Part shown: positions 15,983-29,597 of the stretch, piece by piece
Layout of the letters: every line of letters starts with the position of its first letter
How positions within the stretch are numbered: the first letter of the stretch is position 1
From: Rhodopseudomonas boonkerdii
GTDB taxonomy: Bacteria > Pseudomonadota > Alphaproteobacteria > Rhizobiales > Xanthobacteraceae
Length of the DNA stretch: 64,000 nt
Reading direction: 5' to 3'
NCBI RefSeq assembly: GCF_021184025.1
Contig: NZ_CP036537.1
Coordinates: forward strand, 5,106,001 to 5,170,000
Notes under the pieces: model-generated
The model's database searches: none
What the model was told of the DNA's origin: nothing
The model's input: only the letters and a program-made list of their open reading frames with translations
Made by a program: the position numbers and the translations under genes

Positions 15983-17992
15983 GTGACGAGCCTCTGTTTC
16001 TTGCGAGATTCCGCTGCAAGGCGCGTACCGATCGGTGCTGCGATTGGCGTGCTCACTTTTGGCGGTATCGCTGTAGCCGCCGACCTGCCCGTGAAGACCC
16101 GGCCGCAGCCTGCATACAACTGGAGCGGCTTCTATATCGGCACCCATATGGGCTATGGCGGCGCAGAGCTCGGCGCGAATACTAATCCACAGGCGTTGCA
16201 GGGCGTCTTTTTCCCATCTACATCGACCGGCCTGATCGGCGGCTTTCAGGGCGGCTATAACAGGCAATTCGACAACAATATCGTGCTCGGCGCCGAAATC
16301 GATGCGAGCTTCATCAGCCCCGCGGATACCGCGCGCCTCGGCACTGATCCGTACCATACCACCTTCGACTATTTCGCCACCGCGCGCGGGCGCGTCGGCT
16401 ACGCTGTCGGAACGTGGCTGCCTTATGCGACAGCCGGTTTTGCCTGGGGCAAGACCAAGATCAATCTTCTCGATGCCGACGGCAATATCTTCGCAACCGA
16501 GCAGAAGGACCATATCGGCTGGACCGTCGGCGCCGGCGTCGAGGCCGCGGTCGGCGGCAATTGGACCGCCAAGCTCGAATACAACTACATCGACCTTGCG
16601 CGGCAAACCTATGGGCTCGCCAGCTTTGGCCTGCCTGCGGTCGATGTCGAACCGAAGATCCATGCGGTGAAGCTCGGCCTGAACTACCGCTTCAACGACA
16701 TGCCGTCCTGGTTGCCGACGACGCCGATCAAGGGCCGATCCACGCTGCCCGAGCCGACCGACTGGAACATCCATTACCAGACGACCTTCATCGGCTCTGG
16801 CTATCCCAGCTTCCGTTCGCCCTACGAGGGCACCAACAGCCTGTCCGGCAGCCGCCAGTTCAAAGAGACTTTCACCACCACCGCCTTCCTCGGCTGGCGC
16901 CTGTGGGACGGCGGCGAGTTCTATTTCAATCCCGAGATCGCGCAGGGTTTCGGCTTCAACGGAACCCTCGGCGTTGCCGGCTTCCCCAATGGCGAAGCGC
17001 AGAAGGCTGGCGGCGCCTATCCGAAAATCCGCCCGCAGCGCTACATGTTCCGCCAGACCTTCGGCCTTGGCGGCGAGCAGGAAGATGTAGCTGACGGCCC
17101 CAACCAACTCGCCGGCAAGCGCGACATCGACCGCATCACGCTGACCATTGGCCGATTCGCGATTGGTGATTTCTTCGACGGCAACGCCTATGCGAAGGAC
17201 CCCCGCGCCGATTTCATGAACTGGGCCATGTGGGCCTCCGCCGCCTATGACTTCCCGGCGGACCTGCCCGGTTACACCCGCGGCGGCGTGATCGAGCTGA
17301 ATCGCAGGGACTGGGCGGTACGCGCCGGCCTGTTCCAGGTGCCGTCGCAACCGAACAGCGACACCCTCAACTTCAAGTCCGGCGGCGCCGTGGTGGAATT
17401 CGAGGAGCGGCATCAGATTTTCGATCGCCCCGGCAAGGTGCGCGTCGGCGCCTTCCTTAATCGCGGCAGCACCGGCAGCTATCGCGGCGCGCTCGCGATC
17501 GCGGCCACCGACCCGCTGCTCGACATCAACGACGTGATGGCCTCCATCCGCAAACCGCGCGACAAATACGGCTTCTATCTCAATGGCGAGCAGGAAATTG
17601 CCGACGAGATCGGCCTGTTCGGCCGCGCCAGTTGGAATGACGGCCAGAACGAAATCCTGTCATTTACGGACATCGACCGCAGCATCTCCGGCGGTCTGTC
17701 GATCAAGGGAGGACGCTGGGGCCGCGCCGCGGACACCATCGGCATCGGCGGCGCCATCAACGGCCTGTCCGCCGCGCATCGGGATTTTCTGGCGGCCGGC
17801 GGCAACGGATTGCTGATCGGCGACGGACGGCTGAATTACAGCAACGAGCGCATCTTCGAAACGTTTTACGCCTATGCGATCGACAAGAACCTGACCTTCA
17901 CGGCGGACTATCAGTTGATCGTCAACCCCGCCTACAACGCGGATCGCGGCCCGGTGTCGATCTTCTCCGGGCGTTTGCACGGGGATTTCTGA
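15983..17992 (+). CDS. Fusion outer-membrane protein: OmpA-like barrel plus OprB-type carbohydrate porin
   Basis: This is a 669-residue outer-membrane protein. A signal peptide ends around residue 33 (GGIAVAA-DLP). Residues about 40-245 form an Omp25/Omp31-like small barrel with YNWSGFYIGTHMGYG at the front, the GFQGGYNRQFDNNIVLGAE pattern, and a terminal strand HAVKLGLNYRF. Residues about 258-669 match carbohydrate-selective porins of the OprB type, with DWNIHYQTTFIGSGYPSFRS, the GWRLWDGGEFYFNPEIAQG strand, LTIGRFAIGDFFD and a terminal phenylalanine. OprB porins take up glucose and other sugars. The start is GTG with an AAGGG-like site; no in-frame ATG is available. The presence of two complete barrels in one chain is unusual. 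Confidence 0.85.
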   Translation: MTSLCFLRDSAARRVPIGAAIGVLTFGGIAVAADLPVKTRPQPAYNWSGFYIGTHMGYGGAELGANTNPQALQGVFFPSTSTGLIGGFQGGYNRQFDNNIVLGAEIDASFISPADTARLGTDPYHTTFDYFATARGRVGYAVGTWLPYATAGFAWGKTKINLLDADGNIFATEQKDHIGWTVGAGVEAAVGGNWTAKLEYNYIDLARQTYGLASFGLPAVDVEPKIHAVKLGLNYRFNDMPSWLPTTPIKGRSTLPEPTDWNIHYQTTFIGSGYPSFRSPYEGTNSLSGSRQFKETFTTTAFLGWRLWDGGEFYFNPEIAQGFGFNGTLGVAGFPNGEAQKAGGAYPKIRPQRYMFRQTFGLGGEQEDVADGPNQLAGKRDIDRITLTIGRFAIGDFFDGNAYAKDPRADFMNWAMWASAAYDFPADLPGYTRGGVIELNRRDWAVRAGLFQVPSQPNSDTLNFKSGGAVVEFEERHQIFDRPGKVRVGAFLNRGSTGSYRGALAIAATDPLLDINDVMASIRKPRDKYGFYLNGEQEIADEIGLFGRASWNDGQNEILSFTDIDRSISGGLSIKGGRWGRAADTIGIGGAINGLSAAHRDFLAAGGNGLLIGDGRLNYSNERIFETFYAYAIDKNLTFTADYQLIVNPAYNADRGPVSIFSGRLHGDF

Positions 17993-18000
17993 CGCGCCCC

Positions 18001-18110
18001 CCTCATCCTGAGGAGCATGCCGACGGCATGCGTCTCGAAGGATGGCCACAAGCTTTGAGCCAGGCCATCTCATGGTTCGAGACAGCGCTTCGCGCCTCCT
18101 CACCATGAGG
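18001..18110. repeat. Interspersed palindromic repeat, family A
   Basis: This is a well-preserved copy: CTCATCCTGAGGAGC, then GCGTCTCGAAGGATGG, a spacer, TCATGGTTCGAGAC and CTCCTCACCATGAGG. It separates the convergent porin and glutamate-synthase-like genes. The two halves can fold into two hairpins. Confidence 0.85.
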
Positions 18111-18130
18111 CGGGGGGATTACCCCGCCCC

Positions 18131-19759
18131 TCATACATCCAATGGCTGGAATGAAGCCGCCTGCGCCATCGCCCAGGCATCGCGGAAGCGTCGATCATCG
18201 GTGCCGTGAATCAGCTCGTTCGGTCTCAGCTCCGGATAAAGCTGCGTGAACGACATCACATCATTGTCCGATGAACGATGCGAGAAATGCATCGCCCGGA
18301 TCTGCTGCGGATGTTCGAGACCTGCCGCCGCGATCAGCTCGGCCAGTGCATGCAGCGTCGCCTCATGAAAATTCAGCACACGATCCGTCTTCTGCGGGAT
18401 CGCGAGCGCGCGCGCACGCGTGGGGTCCTGCGTGGCGACGCCGGTCGGGCAGCGATCGGTGTGGCAGCTCAGCGACTGAATGCAGCCGAGCGCGAACATG
18501 AAGCCTCGTGCCGAATTGCACCAGTCGGCGCCGAGCGCCATCGCGCGGGCGATGTCGAAAGCAGTCGCGATCTTGCCGGATGCGCCGATCTTGATGCGAT
18601 CGCGCGCACCGATGCCGATCAGCGCATTGTGCACGAAGTTCACGCCCTCGCGCATCGGCATGCCGAGATGATCCATGAATTCCAGCGGCGCCGCACCGGT
18701 GCCGCCTTCCTTGCCGTCGACGACGATGAAGTCCGGATAGATGCCGGTCTGCAGCATCGCCTTGCAGATGGCGAGGAATTCCCAGGGATGGCCGATGCAC
18801 AGTTTGAAGCCGGCAGGCTTGCCGCCGGACAGACGACGCATCGTGTCGATGAACTGCATCATCTCGACCGGCGTCGAGAACGCCTTGTGATAGGGCGGCG
18901 AGATGCAGTCCTCTCCCATCGCCACGCCGCGGATGCGCGAGATTTCCTCCGACACTTTCGCCGCCGGCAACACCCCGCCATGGCCGGGCTTGGCGCCCTG
19001 ACTGACCTTGAGCTCGACCATCTTGATCTGGTCGAGTGCGGCTCGCGCGGCAAATTTGTCCGGATCGAAGTTTCCGTCCCCGGTGCGACAACCGAAATAG
19101 CCGGAGCCGATTTCCCAGATCAGGTCGCCGCCTTCCTGTTCGTGATAGGGGCTGACGCCGCCCTCACCGGTATCGTGGGCGAAGTTGCCTTTCTTCGCCC
19201 CGGCATTCAGCGCACGTATGGCGTTCGGGCTGAGCGCACCGAAACTCATGGCGGAAATGTTAAGCACCGAAGCCGAATAGGGTCGCAGGCAATCCGGCCC
19301 GCCGATGGTGATGCGAAACTGCTCGGCGGCATGCGGCTTCGGGGCGACCGAGTGGTTCATCCACTCATAACCCTCTTCATAGACGTTTTTCTGTGTACCG
19401 AACGGACGCTTGTCGAGCACCATCTTGGCGCGCTGATAGACGACCGCCCGCGTATCGCGGCTGAACGGCATGCCGTCTTTCTCGCTCTCGAAGAAATACT
19501 GCCGCATCTCGGGGCGGATTTCCTCGAGCAGGAAGCGGATATGCGCCGAGATCGGATAGTTGCGCAGGACCGCGTGGTCTTTCTGCAGCAGATCGTGAAA
19601 TCCGAGCGCGGCGAGACAGCCGAACACGGTGGCGGGAATGACAATGAGATGGATCAGCCGGTGATCCCAGATGCCCATGCCGACCAGGAAAAGCGTGGCC
19701 ACGCTGCAGATCGTCAAGACGATAAAGCGCGGCGTGAACGGTAGCATCACGGTTTGCAT
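18131..19759 (-). CDS. FMN-binding glutamate synthase-family protein
   Basis: This 542-residue protein corresponds to the FMN/iron-sulfur synthase domain of the large glutamate synthase subunit, without the amidotransferase part. Two N-terminal membrane helices (about 10-30 and 35-55) are followed by the (beta/alpha)8 FMN domain with SAMSFGALSPNAIRALN, the KPGHGG loop, VVDGKEGGTGAAP and three cysteines for a 3Fe-4S cluster (Cys426, Cys432, Cys437 in SLSCHTDRCPTGVATQ). Such stand-alone proteins are widespread, but their reaction is not established; they are not the main glutamate synthase. The ATG at 19759 is chosen because the longer frame to 19819 is not conserved-looking. Confidence 0.88.
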   Translation of the reverse strand: MQTVMLPFTPRFIVLTICSVATLFLVGMGIWDHRLIHLIVIPATVFGCLAALGFHDLLQKDHAVLRNYPISAHIRFLLEEIRPEMRQYFFESEKDGMPFSRDTRAVVYQRAKMVLDKRPFGTQKNVYEEGYEWMNHSVAPKPHAAEQFRITIGGPDCLRPYSASVLNISAMSFGALSPNAIRALNAGAKKGNFAHDTGEGGVSPYHEQEGGDLIWEIGSGYFGCRTGDGNFDPDKFAARAALDQIKMVELKVSQGAKPGHGGVLPAAKVSEEISRIRGVAMGEDCISPPYHKAFSTPVEMMQFIDTMRRLSGGKPAGFKLCIGHPWEFLAICKAMLQTGIYPDFIVVDGKEGGTGAAPLEFMDHLGMPMREGVNFVHNALIGIGARDRIKIGASGKIATAFDIARAMALGADWCNSARGFMFALGCIQSLSCHTDRCPTGVATQDPTRARALAIPQKTDRVLNFHEATLHALAELIAAAGLEHPQQIRAMHFSHRSSDNDVMSFTQLYPELRPNELIHGTDDRRFRDAWAMAQAASFQPLDV

Positions 19760-19876
19760 GGACCTGCTCGCAAGTGGTGGGCCTTCAGCCTTACGAAGTT
19801 CGGATGACGGACAAATCACAGACTGGGCGCCAGCCTAGCGCATCAAGCTCATCCAAGTCTTGTGATGCCATGAAAC

Positions 19877-19904
19877 GACAAAACCCACGCCGGAGCGCGG
19901 GTTT
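19877..19904 (-). terminator. Hairpin terminator downstream of fpr
   Basis: On the minus strand CAAAACCCGCGC, a short loop and GCGTGGGTTTTG pair with one mismatch, followed by TCGTTT. It lies between the fpr stop and the upstream end of the glutamate-synthase-like gene, so it would end the fpr transcript. Confidence 0.6.
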
Positions 19905-19930
19905 TGCAATGCGGTAGGTATCCGCTCCGC

Positions 19931-20040
19931 CCTCATGGTGAGGAGCGCGCCCTTGCGCGCGTCTCGAACCGTGAATGGCCCGGCTTGGAGCTTGCGGCCA
20001 TCCTTCGAGACGCCACTGGGCGGCTCCTCAGGATGAGGGG
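19931..20040. repeat. Interspersed palindromic repeat, family A (inverted copy)
   Basis: The arms appear in the opposite order to the 18001 copy: CCTCATGGTGAGGAGCG, CGTCTCGAACC, then CCATCCTTCGAGACG and CTCCTCAGGATGAGG. It ends 12 bases before the fpr stop codon. Confidence 0.85.
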
Positions 20041-20052
20041 ACTGAGCGCGCG

Positions 20053-20826
20053 TCAGCGCTCCACGAAAGCCTTCTCGATCACGAAATGGCCGGGCTTGTT
20101 GCCGCTGCCTTCGGTAAAATTGCGCTTCTCGAACATGGCCTTCAGGTCTTCGAGCATTGCCGGGCTGCCGCACAGCATGACGCGGTCGGTCGCGATGTCG
20201 AGCGGACCCTGGCCCATGTCCTTGAAGATCTGGCCGGACTCGATCAGGTCGGTGATGCGGCCGCGATTGCGGAACGGCTCGCGGGTGACCGTCGGGTAGT
20301 AGGTGAACTTGTCCTTCATCAAGTCGCCGAACAGTTCGTCCTTCTGCAGCCGTTCGACCAGGCGCTCGCCATAGGCCAGCTCGGAGACCTGACGGCAGCC
20401 ATGCACCAGCACGACCTGCTCGTACTGCTCATAGACTTCGGGATCCTTGATCAGGCTGGCAAAGGGCGCGAGGCCGGTGCCCGTGGACAGCATCAGCAGG
20501 CGCTTGCCCGGCAGCAGACTGTCGGTGACCAGCGTGCCCACCGCCTTGCGCGCGACCAGGATGGTGTCGCCTTCCTTGATCTTCTGCAGGCGCGAGGTCA
20601 GCGGGCCATCCGGTACCTTGATGCTGAAGAATTCGAGTTCTTCCTCGTGATTGGCGCTGGCCATCGAATAGGCCCGCAGCAGCGGCTTGCCATCGACTTC
20701 GAGGCCGATCATGGCGAACTGGCCGTTCTGGAAACGGAACGAGGTGTCGCGGGTGGCGCGGAAGGAGAACAGCGTGTCGGTCCAGTGCTGGACGGAGGTT
20801 ACGGTTTCGCGGTGAAAGGCGCTCAT
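20053..20826 (-). CDS. fpr: Ferredoxin--NADP reductase
   Basis: This 257-residue flavoprotein of the bacterial Fpr type transfers electrons between NADPH and ferredoxin or flavodoxin. The FAD motif RAYSMAS is at 51-57, the NADP glycine motif GTGLAPFAS is at 116-124, and MLCGSPAML is near 217-225. The C-terminus extends past the usual aromatic residue and ends in FVIEKAFVER, as in alphaproteobacterial FPRs. It is a single-gene transcript with a terminator downstream. The 364 bases upstream separate it from the ATP-grasp gene. Confidence 0.93.
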   Translation of the reverse strand: MSAFHRETVTSVQHWTDTLFSFRATRDTSFRFQNGQFAMIGLEVDGKPLLRAYSMASANHEEELEFFSIKVPDGPLTSRLQKIKEGDTILVARKAVGTLVTDSLLPGKRLLMLSTGTGLAPFASLIKDPEVYEQYEQVVLVHGCRQVSELAYGERLVERLQKDELFGDLMKDKFTYYPTVTREPFRNRGRITDLIESGQIFKDMGQGPLDIATDRVMLCGSPAMLEDLKAMFEKRNFTEGSGNKPGHFVIEKAFVER

Positions 20827-21190
20827 GGGATATGATTTTCCGGTGCGGACTTAGCTTAGAACGATTACATTCCGAGCCGCGTCAGATGCTGAGAAGCCCT
20901 TGCGGCACTTGGCTAATTCGGTTTCTCGCAGATGCGAGTGACATGTATTCAAAGACACCTGGAAGTGCAATTGCGGATTGAGTGAGGCGGGTCACAAATT
21001 TGCAAACCAGGTTACCGGCCGGCAAGAGCCAAATTTGATCCGGGACATTTAATTTCTCCAGGCTTCCGTTTCCGGATCGATCCTTATCAGCAGCCCCCTG
21101 CTGGATTGGTTGCACCGGTTCCGGTAATTTCCGCTCCTTCGGGAGTCGCGCCGAGCCGCTCCCGCGTTCAATCCTCGGCGCAAGGCCTTG
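20827..21190. other. Divergent intergenic region, fpr / ATP-grasp pair
   Basis: These 364 bases hold no gene that I can support. They must contain the promoters of fpr (leftward) and the ATP-grasp/ligase pair (rightward). I see no clear operator; a TGATCC at 21030 lacks a matching -10 at the right distance. Confidence 0.45.
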
Positions 21191-22198
21191 ATGACCCAGT
21201 TTCGCGCCATTCGCGCCGGCAAGCCGGCCCATTACCCCGACCAGACGATCTATGCGGAATATGCCGCGGACGCGCTGGGGCTGACCTTTGCCGAACGCGA
21301 TGGCGGCAACGGACTGATCTTCGAAGTGTCCGGCGCCGGCCAACGCGCCGTCTTCGGCGCCGGGCGCGGTTCGTTCTTCCCGCAGAATACGGCGACCGCA
21401 GCGACGCTGGCCAATGACAAGCACATGGCCAATGTGCTGATGGCCCGCGCCGGCCTCGCGACGCTGGGCGGCGATTATTTCTTCCTGCACGACCGGCACC
21501 GGAAACATCGCCCACCAGGTCATGAACGCCTCGATGCCTATGGCTATTTCAACGATCTCGGCAATCGCGCCTTCATCAAACCGCTCAATGGCTCTCGCGG
21601 CGACTTTGCTCAGATCGTCGATGGCCTCGATGCGCTGACGACGTATCTGGACAGCGTCGAACGACACTATGACGCGGTGCTCATTCAGCCGGTCTGCACC
21701 GGGCGTGAATTCCGCGCGCTCCTGCTGGACGATGAGATCGTCTATTCGGTGGTGAAAGCCGAGCCCTCGGTGATCGGTGACGGCGAGACGTCTCTTCGCG
21801 ATCTCGTCGCCGCCGAGCAGCCGATGCTGGAATGGCAGGGCATCTCCGCAGCGCCGCTCGACCCGCGCCCGGGCAAACCCGATTTCGTGCCTGCAAAAGG
21901 CGAATATGTCTGGCTGGACGGCCGACACAATCTCAGCGCCGGCGGCGGCATGGCATTCGACGAACCCGACAATGCGGAAGCTGCATTCGCCGCTGCACGA
22001 ACGGCGTTGAAGGCGCTTGGGCTCCGTGCCGGCGCTGTCGATTTCTTCACGAACATTGAAGGCGATTCCGAGCCGTTGCGCGTCATCGAGGTCAACGCCA
22101 ATCCCTCGATCCGCTTCCTCGAAGACGCCGGCCGCGCGGACCTGATCCTGCGCATCTGGCGCCACACCTTCGCATCGCTGGGCCTGACCGATGTTTAA
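21191..22198 (+). CDS. ATP-grasp ligase, cyanophycin-synthetase/RimK-like
   Basis: This 335-residue protein has an ATP-grasp fold. Visible elements in order are the ATP lysine in FIKPLNGSRGD (128-138), the hinge VLIQPVCTGREFRALL (163-178), the KAEPSVIGDGETSLRDL segment (189-205) that matches the P-x-V-x-GDG-T loop of cyanophycin synthetase and RimK, and the metal-binding VIEVNANPS (298-306). ATP-grasp enzymes of this type join a carboxylate to an amine through an acyl phosphate. The next gene overlaps by eight bases and encodes a FolC-like Mur ligase. Both activities occur fused in cyanophycin synthetase, so a split amide-ligase system is inferred. The start is the ATG at 21191; a TTG just before it is possible. 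Confidence 0.82.
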   Translation: MTQFRAIRAGKPAHYPDQTIYAEYAADALGLTFAERDGGNGLIFEVSGAGQRAVFGAGRGSFFPQNTATAATLANDKHMANVLMARAGLATLGGDYFFLHDRHRKHRPPGHERLDAYGYFNDLGNRAFIKPLNGSRGDFAQIVDGLDALTTYLDSVERHYDAVLIQPVCTGREFRALLLDDEIVYSVVKAEPSVIGDGETSLRDLVAAEQPMLEWQGISAAPLDPRPGKPDFVPAKGEYVWLDGRHNLSAGGGMAFDEPDNAEAAFAAARTALKALGLRAGAVDFFTNIEGDSEPLRVIEVNANPSIRFLEDAGRADLILRIWRHTFASLGLTDV

Positions 22199-23513
22199 CC
22201 TGCCCAAATACGGCACCGGTGGTATCGGCCTCGCACGCCTTGCGCTGCTGCTCGATGCGCTATCCATCGATCGTGCGCGTCTGCAACGGCATTCGCTCGT
22301 CATCACCGGCTCCAACGGCAAGGGCTCGACTGCCGCCTTCTGCGCCTCCATCGGCCGCGCCTTCGGCCTGCGCACCGGGCTGTTCACGTCACCGCATCTC
22401 TATCGCTTCAACGAGCGCTTCCGGATCGACGGCGAGCCTGTGGACGACGAATTGCTCGACGCACTCGTGCTGCGCGTCGCCACGGCGATCGCCGATCTCG
22501 AACATCACGGCGTCCACGAGACCTTCGGTGCTTTCGAGGCGCAGTTCGCGCTGGCCTGCCTGTATTTCCAGGAAACCGGCTGCGACCTCGCCGTGTTCGA
22601 AGCCGGCATTGGCGGACGCTACGACCCCGTGCGGCTGATCGGCGCCGCGCTCACTTGCGTCACCTCCGTCGATCTCGAACACACCGCGCTGCTCGGCAAT
22701 TCGCTGGCGTTGATCGCCTCCGACAAGAGCGACGCCTGCGCCAGCCATGGCACCGTGATCTATGGCGAGAACTGCCTGCCGCTCCGCTTGCATCTGGCGG
22801 AGTATAATCGGAGCCGCCATGTCAGCGGCCTGCATGTGGGCGAAGACATCGTCATCAATAACGTGGTGACCTCGGCCAAGGCGCAAAATTTCAACTGCCG
22901 CGTTGGCGCAACCATTTTGCGCGGCCTCGAGATAGGCCTACACGGCGAATTCCAGCTCAACAATGCCTCCATTGCCGCGGCGCTGTTCCTGCTGTGGATG
23001 CAGCGCATGCATCCGGATGCCGACGCCACGCAGATCGATCATGCGATCCGCACCGGCCTGCGCGAGACCGCATGGCCAGGTCGCCTTGAAGTGATCCAGC
23101 GCGAACCGCTCACGGTGATCGATGTCGGCCACACACCGGACGGCGTGATGCAGGCGCTGCGCGGGCTGCACGCCGTGCATGGCAAGGACGACTGGCTGCT
23201 GGTGCTTGGCGTGTCCGCCGACAAGAATGTGGACGAGATCGCGCGGCATCTGGCACCGCATTTCGGCGCCATCGTCTGTACCCGTGCCTATCACAAGGGC
23301 GCCGATGCGCGTGTGGTCGGTGCCGCCGCGCGCAAGGCGCACGGGACGGCGCGCATCCATGTAGCCAATGCGATGGAGGATGCGGTGAGGCTCAGCCAGC
23401 AACTGGCGCGCACCGTGCCACGGAAAATCTATGTCGCCGGCGGGCTTTTCGTGGCGATCGAATATGCGACCGTGCTGCGCGGGGGCAAGGCCGACGAGCT
23501 GCAGTTTTTCTGA
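22191..23513 (+). CDS. Mur ligase/FolC-like ATP-dependent amide ligase
   Basis: This 440-residue enzyme is built like folylpolyglutamate synthase. It has P-loop GSNGKGST (40-47), FTSPHLYRFNERFRIDG (65-81), EAGIGGRYDP (137-146) followed by a lysine at 179 in the position of the modified Mur lysine, GEFQLNNASIA (252-262), PGRLEV (296-301) and DVGHTPDG (311-318). The GGR-YD-P variation and the unusual DVGHT in place of DGAHN separate it from housekeeping FolC. It overlaps the ATP-grasp gene by eight bases, so the two are made together. It probably adds an amino acid to the product of the first enzyme, but the substrate is unknown. Confidence 0.82.
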   Translation: MFNLPKYGTGGIGLARLALLLDALSIDRARLQRHSLVITGSNGKGSTAAFCASIGRAFGLRTGLFTSPHLYRFNERFRIDGEPVDDELLDALVLRVATAIADLEHHGVHETFGAFEAQFALACLYFQETGCDLAVFEAGIGGRYDPVRLIGAALTCVTSVDLEHTALLGNSLALIASDKSDACASHGTVIYGENCLPLRLHLAEYNRSRHVSGLHVGEDIVINNVVTSAKAQNFNCRVGATILRGLEIGLHGEFQLNNASIAAALFLLWMQRMHPDADATQIDHAIRTGLRETAWPGRLEVIQREPLTVIDVGHTPDGVMQALRGLHAVHGKDDWLLVLGVSADKNVDEIARHLAPHFGAIVCTRAYHKGADARVVGAAARKAHGTARIHVANAMEDAVRLSQQLARTVPRKIYVAGGLFVAIEYATVLRGGKADELQFF

Positions 23514-23518
23514 AACAC

Positions 23519-24451
23519 CTAGTTCGTCCCGCCGGCACTGTCATCCAGCGCCTTGAAACTCTCCTCCAGTTGCGGCGAGATCGAGATGCCCATGCGCTCG
23601 CCGGTCGGCAGGCGGGCGACGAACCATTTGTTGTAGAGCGGGATCAGATCGCGATTCGAGCCGAGGCGGCGAAACGCGCGCTCGACCACGGCCGCGAGTT
23701 GCGGATCGCCCTTGCGGAACATGATGCCATAGGGATCGTAGGACAGATAATCGCCGACCACGCGAAAGCGATCCTGCGACTTGTGGCGTGCGATCAGGCC
23801 GGACAGCAGCACGTCATCAGTGGCAAAGGCATCGGCCTTGCCGCCGGCGAGGATCTGATAGCTCGCCTCGTGATCCGGCGAGACTACAAAATTCAGGCCG
23901 AGGCCGAATTTCGCATCAACCGCATGCATCGCCTGTTCATTGGTGGTGCCTTTGGTAACGACGACCGTCTTGCCCTTGAAATCCGCGGGCGCCGTGCCTG
24001 TGGTGGTCTTGGGCACCATCAGCTTGGTGCCGGCGACAAAGATCATCGGCGAGAACGCGACCCGCTTGCGGCGTTCGAGATTGGCCGTGGTCGATCCACA
24101 TTCGAGATCGACCTTGCCGTCGACGACGGCCTGGATGCGGTCGTCGGCGGTCACTTTCACGTAGTCGATGCGCAGCGCGGGATCATCGACCTCGACGGCG
24201 ATATCCTCGACGACCGCCTTGCACAGTTCGAGACTGTAGCCGATCGGCCGGCCGGTCTGATCGAGGAATGAGAATGGCGGCGAACTCTCGCGATAGCCGA
24301 TCTTCACCACTTTGGCCTGCTTGATGCCGGCAAGCGCGGGGCTTAGCCCCTCGTTTGCCGTCTGGGCGACGGCGGTGTGGGTGAGGAGCCAGACGACTCC
24401 CCATCCAATGCCGGTCAGGAGGAATGTGACGCGCAGCATGGCGCGCCTCAT
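23519..24451 (-). CDS. Amino-acid-type solute-binding protein (SBP_bac_3, GltI-like)
   Basis: This 310-residue periplasmic protein has a signal peptide (VTFLLTGIGWGVVWLLTHTAVAQ). The mature protein starts the fold with VVKIGYRESSPPFSFLDQTG and GYSLELCKAV, and has the ligand-binding CGSTTANLERRK segment. This resembles glutamate/aspartate-binding GltI. No ABC permease or ATPase is near. Instead its start overlaps the stop of a DctA-type symporter (ATGA at 24448-24451), which is an unusual pairing. Confidence 0.88.
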   Translation of the reverse strand: MRRAMLRVTFLLTGIGWGVVWLLTHTAVAQTANEGLSPALAGIKQAKVVKIGYRESSPPFSFLDQTGRPIGYSLELCKAVVEDIAVEVDDPALRIDYVKVTADDRIQAVVDGKVDLECGSTTANLERRKRVAFSPMIFVAGTKLMVPKTTTGTAPADFKGKTVVVTKGTTNEQAMHAVDAKFGLGLNFVVSPDHEASYQILAGGKADAFATDDVLLSGLIARHKSQDRFRVVGDYLSYDPYGIMFRKGDPQLAAVVERAFRRLGSNRDLIPLYNKWFVARLPTGERMGISISPQLEESFKALDDSAGGTN

Positions 24452-25731
24452 CCATGTCCGAGAGCGGGGATATTCCCCGGCACCAGTTCCTCGTCAGGCC
24501 CCGTAGCATCCATCTGCGCGAGTTCGCCCTCCCACTTTGCGACCACCGCCGTGGCCAGCGAATTGCCGATCACATTGGTCGCGCTGCGGCCCATGTCGAG
24601 GAAGGTGTCGATACCCATGATCATCAGCAGTCCGGCTTCGGGAATGTTAAACTGGCTGAGCGTCGAGGCGATCACCACCAGCGAAGCGCGCGGCACACCG
24701 GCGACGCCCTTCGAGGTGATCATCAGCGTTGCCAGCATCGCCAACTGAGTGCCGAGCGACATTTCAATGTGGTAGCTTTGCGCGATGAAGATGGCCGCGA
24801 AGGTGCAATACATCATCGTGCCATCGAGATTGAAAGAATAGCCGAGCGGCAGCACGAAGCTCGATGTACGCGAGGACGCTCCGAAGCGATTGAGCCCTTC
24901 CAGCGTTTTCGGATAGGCCGCCTCCGACGAGGCGGTGGAAAAGGCGATCATCAGCGGCTCGCGGATCAGTCGCAGCAGGTGGCTGTAACGCGGCCCGATG
25001 ACGATGAAGCCGACCGCGACGAGAATGCCCCACAGGATCGCCAGCGACAGATAGAACCCGCCCATGAAGACGATCAGCTTCCAGAGCACGCCGAGGCCGT
25101 TCTTCGCCACCGTGGCCATGATCGCCGCCCACACCGCGAGTGGTGCAAACAGCATCACATAGCCGGTCACTTTCAGCATGATGTGGCCGAGATCATCGAT
25201 CAGCGCCAGCATCGGCTTGGAGCGCTCGGGCATCGCGCCCATCGCCACCGCAAAGAAGATTGCGAAGATCACGATCTGCAGGATCTCGTTCTGTGCCATC
25301 GCATCCGCGATCGAGGTCGGGATCAGATGGGTCAGGAATTTCTCGATCGAGAAGGCCGAGGTCTGCAGGCCCGTCGATTGTCCGGCCGCCGGGAGCGTGC
25401 CGGGGAAGTTCGCGCCAGGCTGCAGCAGGTTGACCATGATCAGGCCGAGCAGCAGCGAGACGAAAGACGCGGTAACGAACCAGCCCATGGTCTTGGCGAA
25501 GATGCGACCGAGTTTGGAGCCGGAGCCCATATGGGCGATTCCGCCGACCAGCGTGGCGAAGACGAGCGGCGCGATGATCATCTTGATCAGGCGCAGGAAC
25601 AGCATGGCGATCAGGTTGACGTCGGCAGCGATCTCGCCGCGACTGTCGGGCAGGTAATTGAAAACCAGTGACCCCATCACGATGCCCAAGGCCATCGCGA
25701 TCAGAATGTATTGCGTAAACCTGTTCGACAT
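24448..25731 (-). CDS. Dicarboxylate/amino acid:cation symporter (DAACS family)
   Basis: This 427-residue secondary transporter of the DctA/GltP family moves C4-dicarboxylates or glutamate/aspartate with protons or sodium. It has the family's serine-rich hairpin FSTASSEAAYPKTLEGL, the FVLPLGYSFNLDGTMMY helix and the GVAGVPRASLVVIAS segment. Asn and Asp residues in the VIGNSLATAVVAKWEG region form the substrate site. The start is the ATG at 25731, preceded by a GGGGGG run; a longer open frame to 25929 is spurious. It is cotranscribed with the binding protein gene downstream. Confidence 0.9.
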   Translation of the reverse strand: MSNRFTQYILIAMALGIVMGSLVFNYLPDSRGEIAADVNLIAMLFLRLIKMIIAPLVFATLVGGIAHMGSGSKLGRIFAKTMGWFVTASFVSLLLGLIMVNLLQPGANFPGTLPAAGQSTGLQTSAFSIEKFLTHLIPTSIADAMAQNEILQIVIFAIFFAVAMGAMPERSKPMLALIDDLGHIMLKVTGYVMLFAPLAVWAAIMATVAKNGLGVLWKLIVFMGGFYLSLAILWGILVAVGFIVIGPRYSHLLRLIREPLMIAFSTASSEAAYPKTLEGLNRFGASSRTSSFVLPLGYSFNLDGTMMYCTFAAIFIAQSYHIEMSLGTQLAMLATLMITSKGVAGVPRASLVVIASTLSQFNIPEAGLLMIMGIDTFLDMGRSATNVIGNSLATAVVAKWEGELAQMDATGPDEELVPGNIPALGHG

Positions 25732-25952
25732 TCCGAACCCCCCGTTACACACATCCCGGCTGCGACAGTCTGTCATATTGATCGCGATGCGCAACAGCTT
25801 GTTGCCGCGGAACCGATTTGGCATCAGCGAAAGGTATTGGCCATTGTGCGATGCCGCGTCACCGCTTAGCGTCGAACTACAAAATCTGTGCAGGTTGATT
25901 GCGCGTTGCGCAACAACTGCAACAAACAAAGATAATCGCGGGAGAGACGATC

Positions 25953-26954
25953 ATGACCGACAGCACGAACAAGCAGGTTCTTCTGGTGGAGAAGCCCACC
26001 GGCAAGCTCGGCCTTGAGCATTTCAAGCTCACCGATGGCCGCATGCCTGAACCGAAAGACGGTGAGGCGTTGCTGCGCGTGCGCTATATCTCGCTCGATG
26101 CCGCCAATCGCGCCTGGATGCATGGTGCGACCTATCGTGCGGCGGTGGAGACCAATACGGTGATGGCCGGCGGCGGCATCGCTGAAGTGGTGTCGTCGAA
26201 ATCCGACGCGCTAAAGCCCGGCGACATCGTGTTCGGCGACACCGGCTGGCAGAATTATGCCGCCGTACCAGCGAAACATCTGACCAAGCTGCCGCGCATG
26301 GAGCCGCTCACGCATCTGCTGTCGATCTACGGCATCGCCGGCCTCACTGCCTATTTCGGTCTGCTGCATGTGGGCAAGCCGAAGGCAGGCGAAACAGTCG
26401 TCGTTTCCGCGGCGGCGGGCTCGGTCGGCTCCATCGTCGGCCAGATCGCGAAGCTCAAAGGCTGCCGCGTGATCGGCATCGCCGGCGGCGCGGACAAATG
26501 CCGGTGGCTGACATCTGAACTCGGCTTCGATGCCGCCGTCGACTACAAGGACGGCGCGGTGTTCAAGGCGCTGAAGGCGGTGGCCCCTGACGGCATCGAC
26601 GTCTATTTCGACAATGTCGGCGGCGACATTCTCGAGGCCTGCCTGCCGCAGATGAATCTCAACGGCCGCATCGCCTGCTGCGGCGCCATCTCGCAATATG
26701 ACGGTGCGCCGTCCGCCACTGGCCCGCGCGGCGTGCCGGGCCTGATCGTGGTGAAACGTCTCACCATGCAGGGCTTCATCGTGATGGACTACATGAAGCA
26801 GCGCGACCAGGCGCTGGCCGATCTGCAGGATTGGGTATCGTCCGGCAAGATCAAGGTGCTGGAGGACGTGATCGGCGGGCTGGAAAACACGCCGCAGGCG
26901 CTGATCGGACTCTTGGCGGGAGAGAATAGAGGCAAGCGGATGGTGAGGGTGTAA
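25953..26954 (+). CDS. NADP-dependent MDR oxidoreductase (CurA/prostaglandin-reductase-like)
   Basis: This 333-residue zinc-free medium-chain reductase reduces the double bond of alpha,beta-unsaturated carbonyls in characterised relatives such as CurA. The glycine-rich cofactor motif VSAAAGSVGSIVGQIAK is at 151-167. YGIAGLTAYFGLLHVG (126-141) precedes it, and YFDNVGGDILEACLP and CGAISQYD follow. No zinc-binding residues are present. The ATG at 25953 has GGGAGAGA upstream. It is divergent from the symporter operon. Confidence 0.9.
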   Translation: MTDSTNKQVLLVEKPTGKLGLEHFKLTDGRMPEPKDGEALLRVRYISLDAANRAWMHGATYRAAVETNTVMAGGGIAEVVSSKSDALKPGDIVFGDTGWQNYAAVPAKHLTKLPRMEPLTHLLSIYGIAGLTAYFGLLHVGKPKAGETVVVSAAAGSVGSIVGQIAKLKGCRVIGIAGGADKCRWLTSELGFDAAVDYKDGAVFKALKAVAPDGIDVYFDNVGGDILEACLPQMNLNGRIACCGAISQYDGAPSATGPRGVPGLIVVKRLTMQGFIVMDYMKQRDQALADLQDWVSSGKIKVLEDVIGGLENTPQALIGLLAGENRGKRMVRV

Positions 26955-26962
26955 CTACACTC

Positions 26963-27013
26963 GTCATTCCGGGGCGGATCGACGCCGAAGGCGGCAGGAC
27001 CGGCCCCGGAATA
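26963..27013. repeat. Palindromic repeat, family D-like
   Basis: The element has outer arms CATTCCGGGGC and GCCCCGGAATA that pair around a GC-rich centre. It lies between the CurA-like gene and the convergent TIGR02302 gene, where it could also act as a bidirectional transcription end. Confidence 0.6.
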
Positions 27014-27023
27014 ACGTACTGGT

Positions 27024-29597
27024 TCAATAATCCTTCAGCAGCCGCTCGATATAATCCAGCTCGAGCTGCGGGCGCGTGGTATCGCCGAGGCGGCGACGCA
27101 GTTCTTCGAGAATCCGGCGCACGCGCTGCACGTCGATCTCGCCGGGAATTTTCACTGACAGATCGTCACCGAGATCGCGGCCACGCAGCGGGCGGCCAAG
27201 CGGATCGCTGTTGCGCGCCGCGCCCTGCTGGCGGCCGGGATTGTTGCCCGGGCCGTCCTGCCCACCTTCGCCCTCGCCCTGCTGCATCTGCTGGGCGAGA
27301 CTCTGCGCGCCCTTGCGGAGCGCTTCGAGCGCGCGACCCTGCGAGCCGACGGCGCCATCAGCATCGCCTTCGCCGAGCTGGCCCCCGGCATCGCCCATGG
27401 CTCCATCGGCATCACCGAGCCCGTCACCGTCGTCGCCATCCTGATCGCCGGACTGGCCCTGCTGTCCCTGACCTTGCTGGCCCTGTTGCCCCTGCTGGCC
27501 CTTCTGTCCCTTTTGCCCTTGGCCCATGCCCTGGCGTGCGAGCTGCTCCTGCAGCTTCTTGAGTCGATCGCGCAGGCTCTGCTGATCCTGCTGCAGATCG
27601 CCCATGCTCTTGTCGCCGCGCTGCCCGCGGCGGCGCTCGCCGCGCTGGTCCTGGCCTTCCTTGAAGGTCTTGTCGCGAAGCTGCTGCTGCTTGCGGATCA
27701 TGTCGTTGAGTTCGTTCATCGACTGCTGCATCTCGTCGTCGCCGCCCTGGCCGGGCTGCGCCATCTGCAGGTTTTCCAGCATCTGCTGCATCTGTTCGAG
27801 CAACTGCCGGGCAGCATCCTTGTCGCCGGAGCGCGACAGCCGCTCCATGCGCTCGATCATGTTGTTCAGATCCTGCTGCCGCATCACCCGCGTGTTCTTG
27901 TCGAGCGGGCGCGCGAGCTGCTGCGGATTCTGCTTCATCTGCTCGGCGAGCTGCTTGAGGAACTTGTCCAGCGCCGCCCTCAGATTCTCGGTGAGCTTCT
28001 TGATCTCCTCGTCGCTGGCGCCGCGCTCAAGCGCCTGCTTGAGGGCGTCCTGCGCCGCACGCAGCGCCTTGTCGACATCGGTAATGTCGCCGTCCTCGAT
28101 GGTGACGGCGAGCGACCACAGGCTGGCGACAAGCTCCTTCAGAGCGGCATCGGTGCGGGCGCGCTGGGCCTGGACGAGAACGCTGCGCAGGCCGAGATAG
28201 TGACCGGCCTCCGGCGTGAAGGCTTCCGGCGCGATCAGCAGCGCTTCCAGCGCGAAGACGATCTGATCCTTGTAATTGGCATCGAGCGCAAGATTGCGCC
28301 GCTGCTCGATCAGCGCGCGCGGCACCGGCTTGGTGAACAGACGCTCCGGCAGGCGCGTTGCGACAGCCTCGCTCCGGCCTTCATTGCCGGACTCGTCCTT
28401 GGCCGTAAGCGTCAGCATCACCTCGGCGCCGGCATAGGGATCTTCGGACAGATCCTTCACCGTCTGGCCGATGCCGTTGCGGGTGCGCGCATTGGGCAGC
28501 ACCAGCGAGAAGGACGGCGGATCGAACAGCGGACGCGGCTTGGCGCCCTTGCCGTCGCCCGGCTTCGCAGCGAATTGCGCGTGGGCTTCGGTGACGCCGT
28601 AATCGTCCTCGAGCTTGTAGGCGAGCAGCAGCGAGCCGCGCGCCTGACGCTCGGGGTCCTTTGCAAGGGAGATGGTCGGCGGACGGTCGGCGGTAGCGGT
28701 GAATTTCCACACCGGCTGCCCCGCAGGCGCGCGGACCTGCGCGGTGCCGTCGCCAGTAATGGTGTAGTGCTTCTCGCTGGTGCCGGCCGGCGCATCGGCG
28801 GCGGGCGCGGCTTCTGCAACTCCCCCGGTGAGCACGACATCCGGTGCGCCGCCGCTGGAACGCACGATCAGCGTCGAGCCCGATGGCACCGCCATCGCCG
28901 CCGCATCCGTATGCGCCGCGTCCTTGTTCGCGGCCGAAAGGATGATCGGCGGCTTCGCCGTATAAGGCGGCGGATTGACCCAGGCATCGACGCGGACATT
29001 GGATGGCGCGATGACGCCGTTCCAGTCGAACGCGGCCATGATGCGCGCGCCGCGTTCCCCCGACGCGGCGAACCAGGTAGCTACCAGCAACACGAGCACC
29101 AGCGCCCGCAGCGCCCACGGATCATGCAGCGGCAATCGCGGCGACGGCATCCCGGCACGGATGCGCTTCAGCGAGGCCAGCGTGCGTTCGCGCTGCACCT
29201 GCCAGAGCGCGCGCGCGAGCGGATCCTGCGAGGCCAGCGTGTCGGTGAGCGCGGTGGCCGGGCGATGGCGGATGCCCGAGCCGCGGTCGAGCCTGGCGAG
29301 GCCTTCCTCGCGGGTCGGCCACCGGAAACGGATGAGCGGATACGAGGCGGCGATCAACGCGACGACGAACAGCACAAGCACAACAGTGCGCGAAATCGGC
29401 GACAGCGCCAGCCAGAGGCCAGCCCAGGAAACCACGAGAAACAGGCCGACAACGGAGAGCAAGCGCGCCAGCGACGGCCATGCCCGCTCCCAGCCGATCG
29501 ACCACCGCGCCCGCTGCAACGCCTGGGCAAGCTGAAGCTGCGCCATGCTCTGCGCGTCGAGTGGGGTCTCTGGGCGGACGGGTGGCGTGGCGCTCAA
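27024..29597 (-). CDS. TIGR02302 family large membrane-anchored protein
   Basis: This 857-residue protein is typical of Bradyrhizobium and relatives. Two membrane helices lie near residues 48-67 and 70-90, and a third hydrophobic segment is near 165-180. A large domain follows (about 190-430), then a long helical, charged region (about 480-640) with likely coiled coil. A low-complexity Gln/Gly/Asp stretch is at about 680-770 (short GQ and QKG repeats), and there is a conserved C-terminal tail with RRLGDTTRPQLELDYIERLL. The function is not known. It is the last gene of the minus-strand run argH-lptM-lysA. Confidence 0.88.
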   Translation of the reverse strand: MSATPPVRPETPLDAQSMAQLQLAQALQRARWSIGWERAWPSLARLLSVVGLFLVVSWAGLWLALSPISRTVVLVLFVVALIAASYPLIRFRWPTREEGLARLDRGSGIRHRPATALTDTLASQDPLARALWQVQRERTLASLKRIRAGMPSPRLPLHDPWALRALVLVLLVATWFAASGERGARIMAAFDWNGVIAPSNVRVDAWVNPPPYTAKPPIILSAANKDAAHTDAAAMAVPSGSTLIVRSSGGAPDVVLTGGVAEAAPAADAPAGTSEKHYTITGDGTAQVRAPAGQPVWKFTATADRPPTISLAKDPERQARGSLLLAYKLEDDYGVTEAHAQFAAKPGDGKGAKPRPLFDPPSFSLVLPNARTRNGIGQTVKDLSEDPYAGAEVMLTLTAKDESGNEGRSEAVATRLPERLFTKPVPRALIEQRRNLALDANYKDQIVFALEALLIAPEAFTPEAGHYLGLRSVLVQAQRARTDAALKELVASLWSLAVTIEDGDITDVDKALRAAQDALKQALERGASDEEIKKLTENLRAALDKFLKQLAEQMKQNPQQLARPLDKNTRVMRQQDLNNMIERMERLSRSGDKDAARQLLEQMQQMLENLQMAQPGQGGDDEMQQSMNELNDMIRKQQQLRDKTFKEGQDQRGERRRGQRGDKSMGDLQQDQQSLRDRLKKLQEQLARQGMGQGQKGQKGQQGQQGQQGQGQQGQSGDQDGDDGDGLGDADGAMGDAGGQLGEGDADGAVGSQGRALEALRKGAQSLAQQMQQGEGEGGQDGPGNNPGRQQGAARNSDPLGRPLRGRDLGDDLSVKIPGEIDVQRVRRILEELRRRLGDTTRPQLELDYIERLLKDY

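Follow-up and report, generated by a model that had tools for sequence, protein, structure and literature searches.

A conserved gene pair in Rhodopseudomonas boonkerdii joins a CphA-like ATP-grasp ligase to a FolC-like Mur ligase, a candidate two-enzyme system for amino-acid ligation

Results

The window, a stretch of 64,000 nucleotides (positions 5,106,001 to 5,170,000 of contig NZ_CP036537.1) from the single-contig genome of Rhodopseudomonas boonkerdii (5,632,343 bases), carries two overlapping genes, one for an ATP-grasp ligase and one for a Mur ligase resembling folylpolyglutamate synthase (FolC). An earlier reading of the bare sequence, here called the original prediction, had described this gene layout, an overlap of eight bases and four motifs, and all of them were confirmed. 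The features are as follows.

21191..22198, plus strand: ATP-grasp ligase gene, 335 amino acids (aa) counted from ATG; an alternative TTG lies one codon upstream at 21188
21532..22009, plus strand: putatively recombined segment of the ATP-grasp gene, containing the lid and the amino-acid loop
21776..21793, plus strand: GDGETS motif of the ATP-grasp gene
22088..22105, plus strand: EVNANP motif of the ATP-grasp gene, with metal ligands E300 and N302
22191..22198, plus strand: eight-base overlap of the ATP-grasp and FolC-like genes
22191..23513, plus strand: FolC-like Mur-ligase gene, 440 aa, distinct subfamily of TIGR01499
22611..22628, plus strand: GGRYDP motif of the FolC-like gene, then V147 and R148 (mostly T and N in canonical FolC)
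23121..23141, plus strand: DVGHTPD motif of the FolC-like gene, with T315, where canonical FolC has N
23442..23444, plus strand: G418 codon of the FolC-like gene, where canonical FolC has Ser

The system is conserved, with a patchy distribution. Among the matches listed, a scope that holds for all our family, order, phylum, class and 60-genome searches, 26 of 198 family genomes carry the ATP-grasp (E<1e-100), and the set carrying the FolC-like protein (E<1e-200) is made up of these 26 and no others, among them the window's genome and 10 others listed from its genus group; one of the 26 (G159) is placed by coordinates from the two protein searches only. The FolC-like gene directly follows the ATP-grasp gene in 43/43 loci, with an overlap of 8, 1 or 0 nucleotides (nt) or an 8-nt gap, in a set that was located by tblastn and counts some genomes twice. 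Long antisense open reading frames (ORFs) hid the pair from greedy ORF calling in the window and at seven loci. The flanks are constant in all 20 larger loci: a glutamate-synthase-like gene precedes the pair and a reductase gene follows it. Folds, adjacency and joint conservation thus bear out the view of two separate, tightly coupled ligases of the named superfamilies, and the pair is conserved together in its relatives, one of the two points on which the original prediction stood or fell.

The ATP-grasp profile had no strong match in 397 genomes of the order (best 1.2e-38) or in 398 genomes of the phylum (best 3.2e-24). At 49 further loci from these searches (L053-L101) no close FolC-like gene lies within about 1.5 kb on either side; two of them have weak Mur matches of about 25% identity. 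The FolC-like profile, run against 385 genomes of the class, recovered three more genomes in two other alphaproteobacterial families (f165 and f237; E 1e-92 to 1e-101), and here an ATP-grasp gene again lies directly upstream, with a 4-nt overlap, a 1-nt overlap or a 3-nt gap. The class search also gave four weaker matches (E 1e-39 to 1e-40), which were left aside. Spread by plasmids was set aside, as 72,556 plasmid records hold no match of at least 60% identity to either protein, and the matches listed from further plasmid searches were all distant FolCs, CphAs, GshABs or lone ATP-grasps.

The FolC-like protein passes the TIGR01499 model (245.8 bits, cut-off 162.65). Nor, as regards the other point, is it the only FolC of the genome: a canonical copy (G000:C1:392952-394166) lies elsewhere in the window's genome, beside a probable accD (the neighbour names accD, trp genes, trxA, lolA and folE were assigned by eye throughout), and a canonical FolC is also present in 26/26 pair genomes, so folate synthesis does not need the pair; genome G189 has two canonical-type FolCs besides the pair. 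A FolC over the cut-off was found in 60/60 sampled proteobacterial genomes, and among the matches listed only the window's genome has a second separate gene over it. Identity to the FolC of its own genome is 24.0% in the multiple alignment (29% in a local match) and ranges from 21.7 to 28.8% against 35 canonical rows (34 distinct genes, since L002 and L158 are the same gene; L147 is partial), while the window genome's canonical FolC is 28-68% identical to the other canonical rows. A recent duplication of the local folC was set aside, for the 24.0% identity is no nearer than that to other canonical rows.

Residues K44, S67, E137, H164, K179, R298, D311 and H314 are the same as in canonical FolC, and the catalytic P-loop Lys, Glu, His, Lys, Asp and His are present in 70/70 FolC-like proteins and in 35/35 canonical rows. 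Four other positions are fixed differently in the 37 pair proteins: R148 (37/37, versus N in 33/35 canonical rows), E163 (37/37, versus D in 35/35), T315 (37/37, versus N in 35/35) and G418 (37/37, versus S in 34/35). The three distant pair proteins also carry R148, E163, T/S315 and G418. Relatives of one of them, among the matches listed, have R148, E163 and T/S315 in 120/120 and G418 in 117/120 cases, and their source names include Azospirillum, Blastocatellia, Symploca and Cyanothece. From work on MurD and folylpolyglutamate synthase we assume that positions 315 and 418 are the counterparts of residues that hold the incoming amino acid, so the ligase likely takes a changed amino acid. D145, which we take to be the equivalent of the E. 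coli pterin-site Asp154, is kept in 70/70 FolC-like proteins. With its intact catalytic core and fixed changes near the substrate sites, the protein represents a distinct FolC subfamily, which agrees with the proposal of a FolC-like Mur ligase deviating at key motifs. A 753-aa metagenomic protein (P0247) consists of two fused FolC-type modules, the second with the subfamily signature; it had been considered as an ATP-grasp fusion, which was rejected as both modules are FolC-type.

The ATP-grasp protein scores 64.2 bits against CphA versus 26.3 bits against RimK, and passes neither the cut-off of the RimK family (TIGR00768, 143.4 bits) nor, at 40.4 bits, that of N-acetylglutaminylglutamine synthetase (TIGR03103, 569 bits). 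According to the TeCphA1 study (PMC9427784), the aspartate site of that enzyme comprises Asn394, Arg323 and Arg458, beside Ser396; Arg309 and Glu215 contact the chain, and His267 the acyl phosphate. Among 93 pair ATP-grasps, the equivalents of Asn394 (N247, 93/93), Ser396 (S249, 91/93) and Arg458 (R308, 91/93) are retained, and Arg323 is replaced by Lys in 93/93. The Arg309 equivalent is R in 93/93; that of Glu215, a position inferred from its spacing to a conserved Lys, is T/S/A in 93/93, and that of His267 is Arg in 91/93 and His in 2. From these per-residue counts the aspartate side of the CphA pocket appears mostly preserved, unlike the chain side. None of 25 single ATP-grasps of two other groups has the Arg458 equivalent.

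Unexpectedly, alleles of the ATP-grasp gene that are otherwise alike have apparently exchanged its substrate-contacting middle, with the FolC-like partner remaining conserved. At the DNA level the window is only 55-59% identical to two related loci (L025 and L028) at 21501-21950, versus about 90% or more in the reductase gene, both ends of the ATP-grasp gene and most of the FolC-like gene. Synonymous divergence (dS) is 0.74-0.80 in the ATP-grasp gene, 0.33 in the FolC-like gene, 0.19-0.25 in the reductase gene and 0.33-0.58 in other flanking genes, and the ATP-grasp gene has roughly ten times the nonsynonymous divergence (dN) of its FolC-like neighbour. A recombination scan with L025 and L023 as parents delimited the segment 21532-22009, inside which L025 matches 29/164 informative sites, compared with 66/96 outside; 0/200 permutations scored as high, in a scheme that shuffles sites singly and so ignores linkage. 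A fourth triple (with L024) gave a weaker signal over a wider segment (LLR 10.5). On near-identical ends the ATP-grasp proteins carry three types of middle (I, II and III, defined after inspection of the data), and in one protein pair the N, middle and C parts are 92, 54 and 88% identical. Trees of the ends and of the middle disagree; the likelihood test of types I, II and III as one clade on the middle segment, made on quick trees, is marginal (p 0.056).

The same site also holds other genes. At L102, L103, L104 and L106 (genomes G024, G064, G086 and G138, one genus group) an ATP-grasp of another subfamily lies behind the same reductase, without a FolC-like partner; the downstream flanking gene is seen in three of these genomes, and the fourth stretch ends before it. 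L105 (3926-5140, reverse strand) has neither ATP-grasp between the same flanks, and its 1.2-kb gap shows no remnant recognised by eye. Given the swapped segments and the other subfamily at the same site, the ATP-grasp is the variable and the FolC-like ligase the conserved element. The exchange of the segment suggests a selected change of substrate.

Some surroundings are less regular. Downstream of the pair, the window carries genes for a glutamate/aspartate-type binding protein and a dicarboxylate symporter (23519-25929, minus strand); such transporter genes stand at this place in only 3/20 pair loci, and therefore are not a fixed part of the system. A pattern search found 0 promoter and terminator patterns in 20700-23700, and no RNA family reached its gathering score in 17900-27100. 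Elsewhere, L053-L071 (mostly family f41) represent another subfamily of single ATP-grasps without a FolC-like neighbour; those of L053, L057 and L064 adjoin lolA, and that of L057 also folE. On a Rhizobium plasmid, the gene table of which is incomplete, a single ATP-grasp stands without any annotated ligase next to it.

Discussion

Our results are best explained by a dedicated two-enzyme, two-step, ATP-driven pathway of amino-acid ligation that yields a small conjugate, a reading to which we assign a probability of roughly 0.55. The pair would constitute a single non-ribosomal pathway, in which both enzymes convert a carboxylate to an acyl phosphate and couple it to an amino acid through the amino group of the latter. 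What the ATP-grasp attaches is most likely a small acidic (aspartate-like) amino acid, and the FolC-like ligase would add an amino acid at a carboxylate of that compound. We expect the product to be a small conjugate, neither a folate polyglutamate nor cyanophycin; for the short polymer that had been offered as an alternative product no evidence was found. More speculative, and to us rather doubtful in its full form, is the extended proposal that a CphA-like ATP-grasp and a repurposed FolC subfamily make an amino-acid conjugate while the recombining cassette shifts the amino acid or acceptor between strains.

Several points weigh against this pathway. The R308 position is Ala in all three distant pairs, and the acidic amino acid is therefore proposed for the window's family only. 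The substrate roles given to positions 315 and 418 are presumed from MurD and folylpolyglutamate synthase. The evidence for pairing comes from Alphaproteobacteria, and many members of the FolC-like subfamily lie outside that class. Finally, in f237 the pair stands directly behind a canonical folC, which points towards folate.

The last point leads to the main rival, namely that both enzymes extend or cap the tail of folate (or of another pterin cofactor), much as the RimK-like MptN and CofF act on archaeal cofactors. The strongest evidence for a folate link is that the pair directly follows canonical folC in 2/2 f237 genomes: one has the order accD-folC-ATP-grasp-FolC-like, and the contig of the other runs out shortly after folC, with only the beginning of the ATP-grasp gene still on it. 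The absence of a folate gene beside the pair, as originally claimed, thus holds in the window and fails in f237. The FolC fold and model score of the second protein, the retained D145 and the metagenomic protein of two fused FolC-type modules likewise count in its favour. However, the fixed changes lie beside the acceptor site and at the amino-acid site, no folate gene is found near the pair in the window's family, and swaps of ATP-grasp segments would be unusual for a housekeeping cofactor step. We consider modification of a folate tail unlikely, though it is the most serious of the alternatives. At L187 (8882-12579) the pair lies directly behind canonical folC and closes a trp-accD-folC gene row.

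The remaining alternatives fare worse. A RimK-like or LysX/ArgX-like modifier of protein tails or carrier proteins, in which the FolC-like enzyme would supply a second residue, is improbable: the ATP-grasp sequence prefers CphA over RimK, visual inspection of the neighbours revealed no carrier gene, and FolC enzymes are known to act on small molecules. A split cyanophycin-like polymer synthetase, to which we give slightly less credence still, would account for the same two superfamilies and the largely kept aspartate contacts. Against it stand the FolC lineage of the Mur partner, the replaced Glu215 and His267, and the window's genome itself, in which neither CphA nor cyanophycinase was detected (no second match to the ATP-grasp query at E<=10, no cyanophycinase match at E<=1). 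The original prediction was right in seeing no cyanophycinase beside the pair; the equivalence to cyanophycin synthetase that it evoked is not borne out, given the FolC-lineage partner and the changed chain-contacting residues. Descent from a split CphA was set aside in view of the FolC-type sequence and fold of the second gene. Least probable of all is a redundant extra FolC that adjoins an unrelated ATP-grasp gene, an idea fed by the public names of close relatives (mostly dihydrofolate synthase/folylpolyglutamate synthase) and opposed by the low identity to canonical FolC, the fixed pocket changes and the exact co-occurrence with the ATP-grasp.

Our search of titles and abstracts of open-licence papers found no description of this gene pair. 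Databases name its members dihydrofolate/folylpolyglutamate synthase or cyanophycin synthetase, and a separate pathway, present in some soil bacteria, may therefore be hidden behind wrong labels. The residue signature R148, E163, T/S315, S342 and G418 separates the FolC-like subfamily and makes it testable with purified proteins. The swapped segment provides natural pairs of enzymes whose differences lie mainly at the substrate site, and hence a direct route to the residues that choose the amino acid.

Comparison with known systems

As in CphA1 (TIGR02068; 7wae, 7txv), the maker of multi-L-arginyl-poly-aspartate, an ATP-grasp (G) would work with a Mur-type ligase (M) towards a single product. 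The ATP-grasps of the window's family mostly retain the equivalents of Asn394, Ser396 and Arg458, with Lys for Arg323, and the three distant pairs lack that of Arg458. In contrast to the single N-G-M polypeptide of CphA1, the pair consists of two genes (335 and 440 aa) without an N domain; its Mur part is of the FolC lineage, whereas the M domain of CphA1 is MurE-like; and it lacks the Glu215 and His267 equivalents, in a genome in which no cyanophycinase was detected. Canonical FolC (TIGR01499; 1jbw, 1w78) shares the fold over the whole length as well as the catalytic Lys, Glu, His and P-loop, while the pair protein differs by the fixed N148R, D163E, N315T/S and S418G, coexists with canonical FolC in every pair genome and is tied to an ATP-grasp. 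RimK, LysX and ArgX ligases are set apart by the pair ATP-grasp scoring far under the RimK family cut-off. N-acetylglutaminylglutamine synthetase shows weak similarity in the ATP-grasp domain, far under its own model cut-off, and that enzyme has no FolC-like partner. The archaeal pseudomurein pathway (PMC11915815) likewise combines an ATP-grasp and Mur-type ligases in one pathway, but with several Mur ligases of other lineages, a cell-wall product and an archaeal setting. Set beside these systems, the pair is a new combination of two known kinds of ligase, not a new chemistry.
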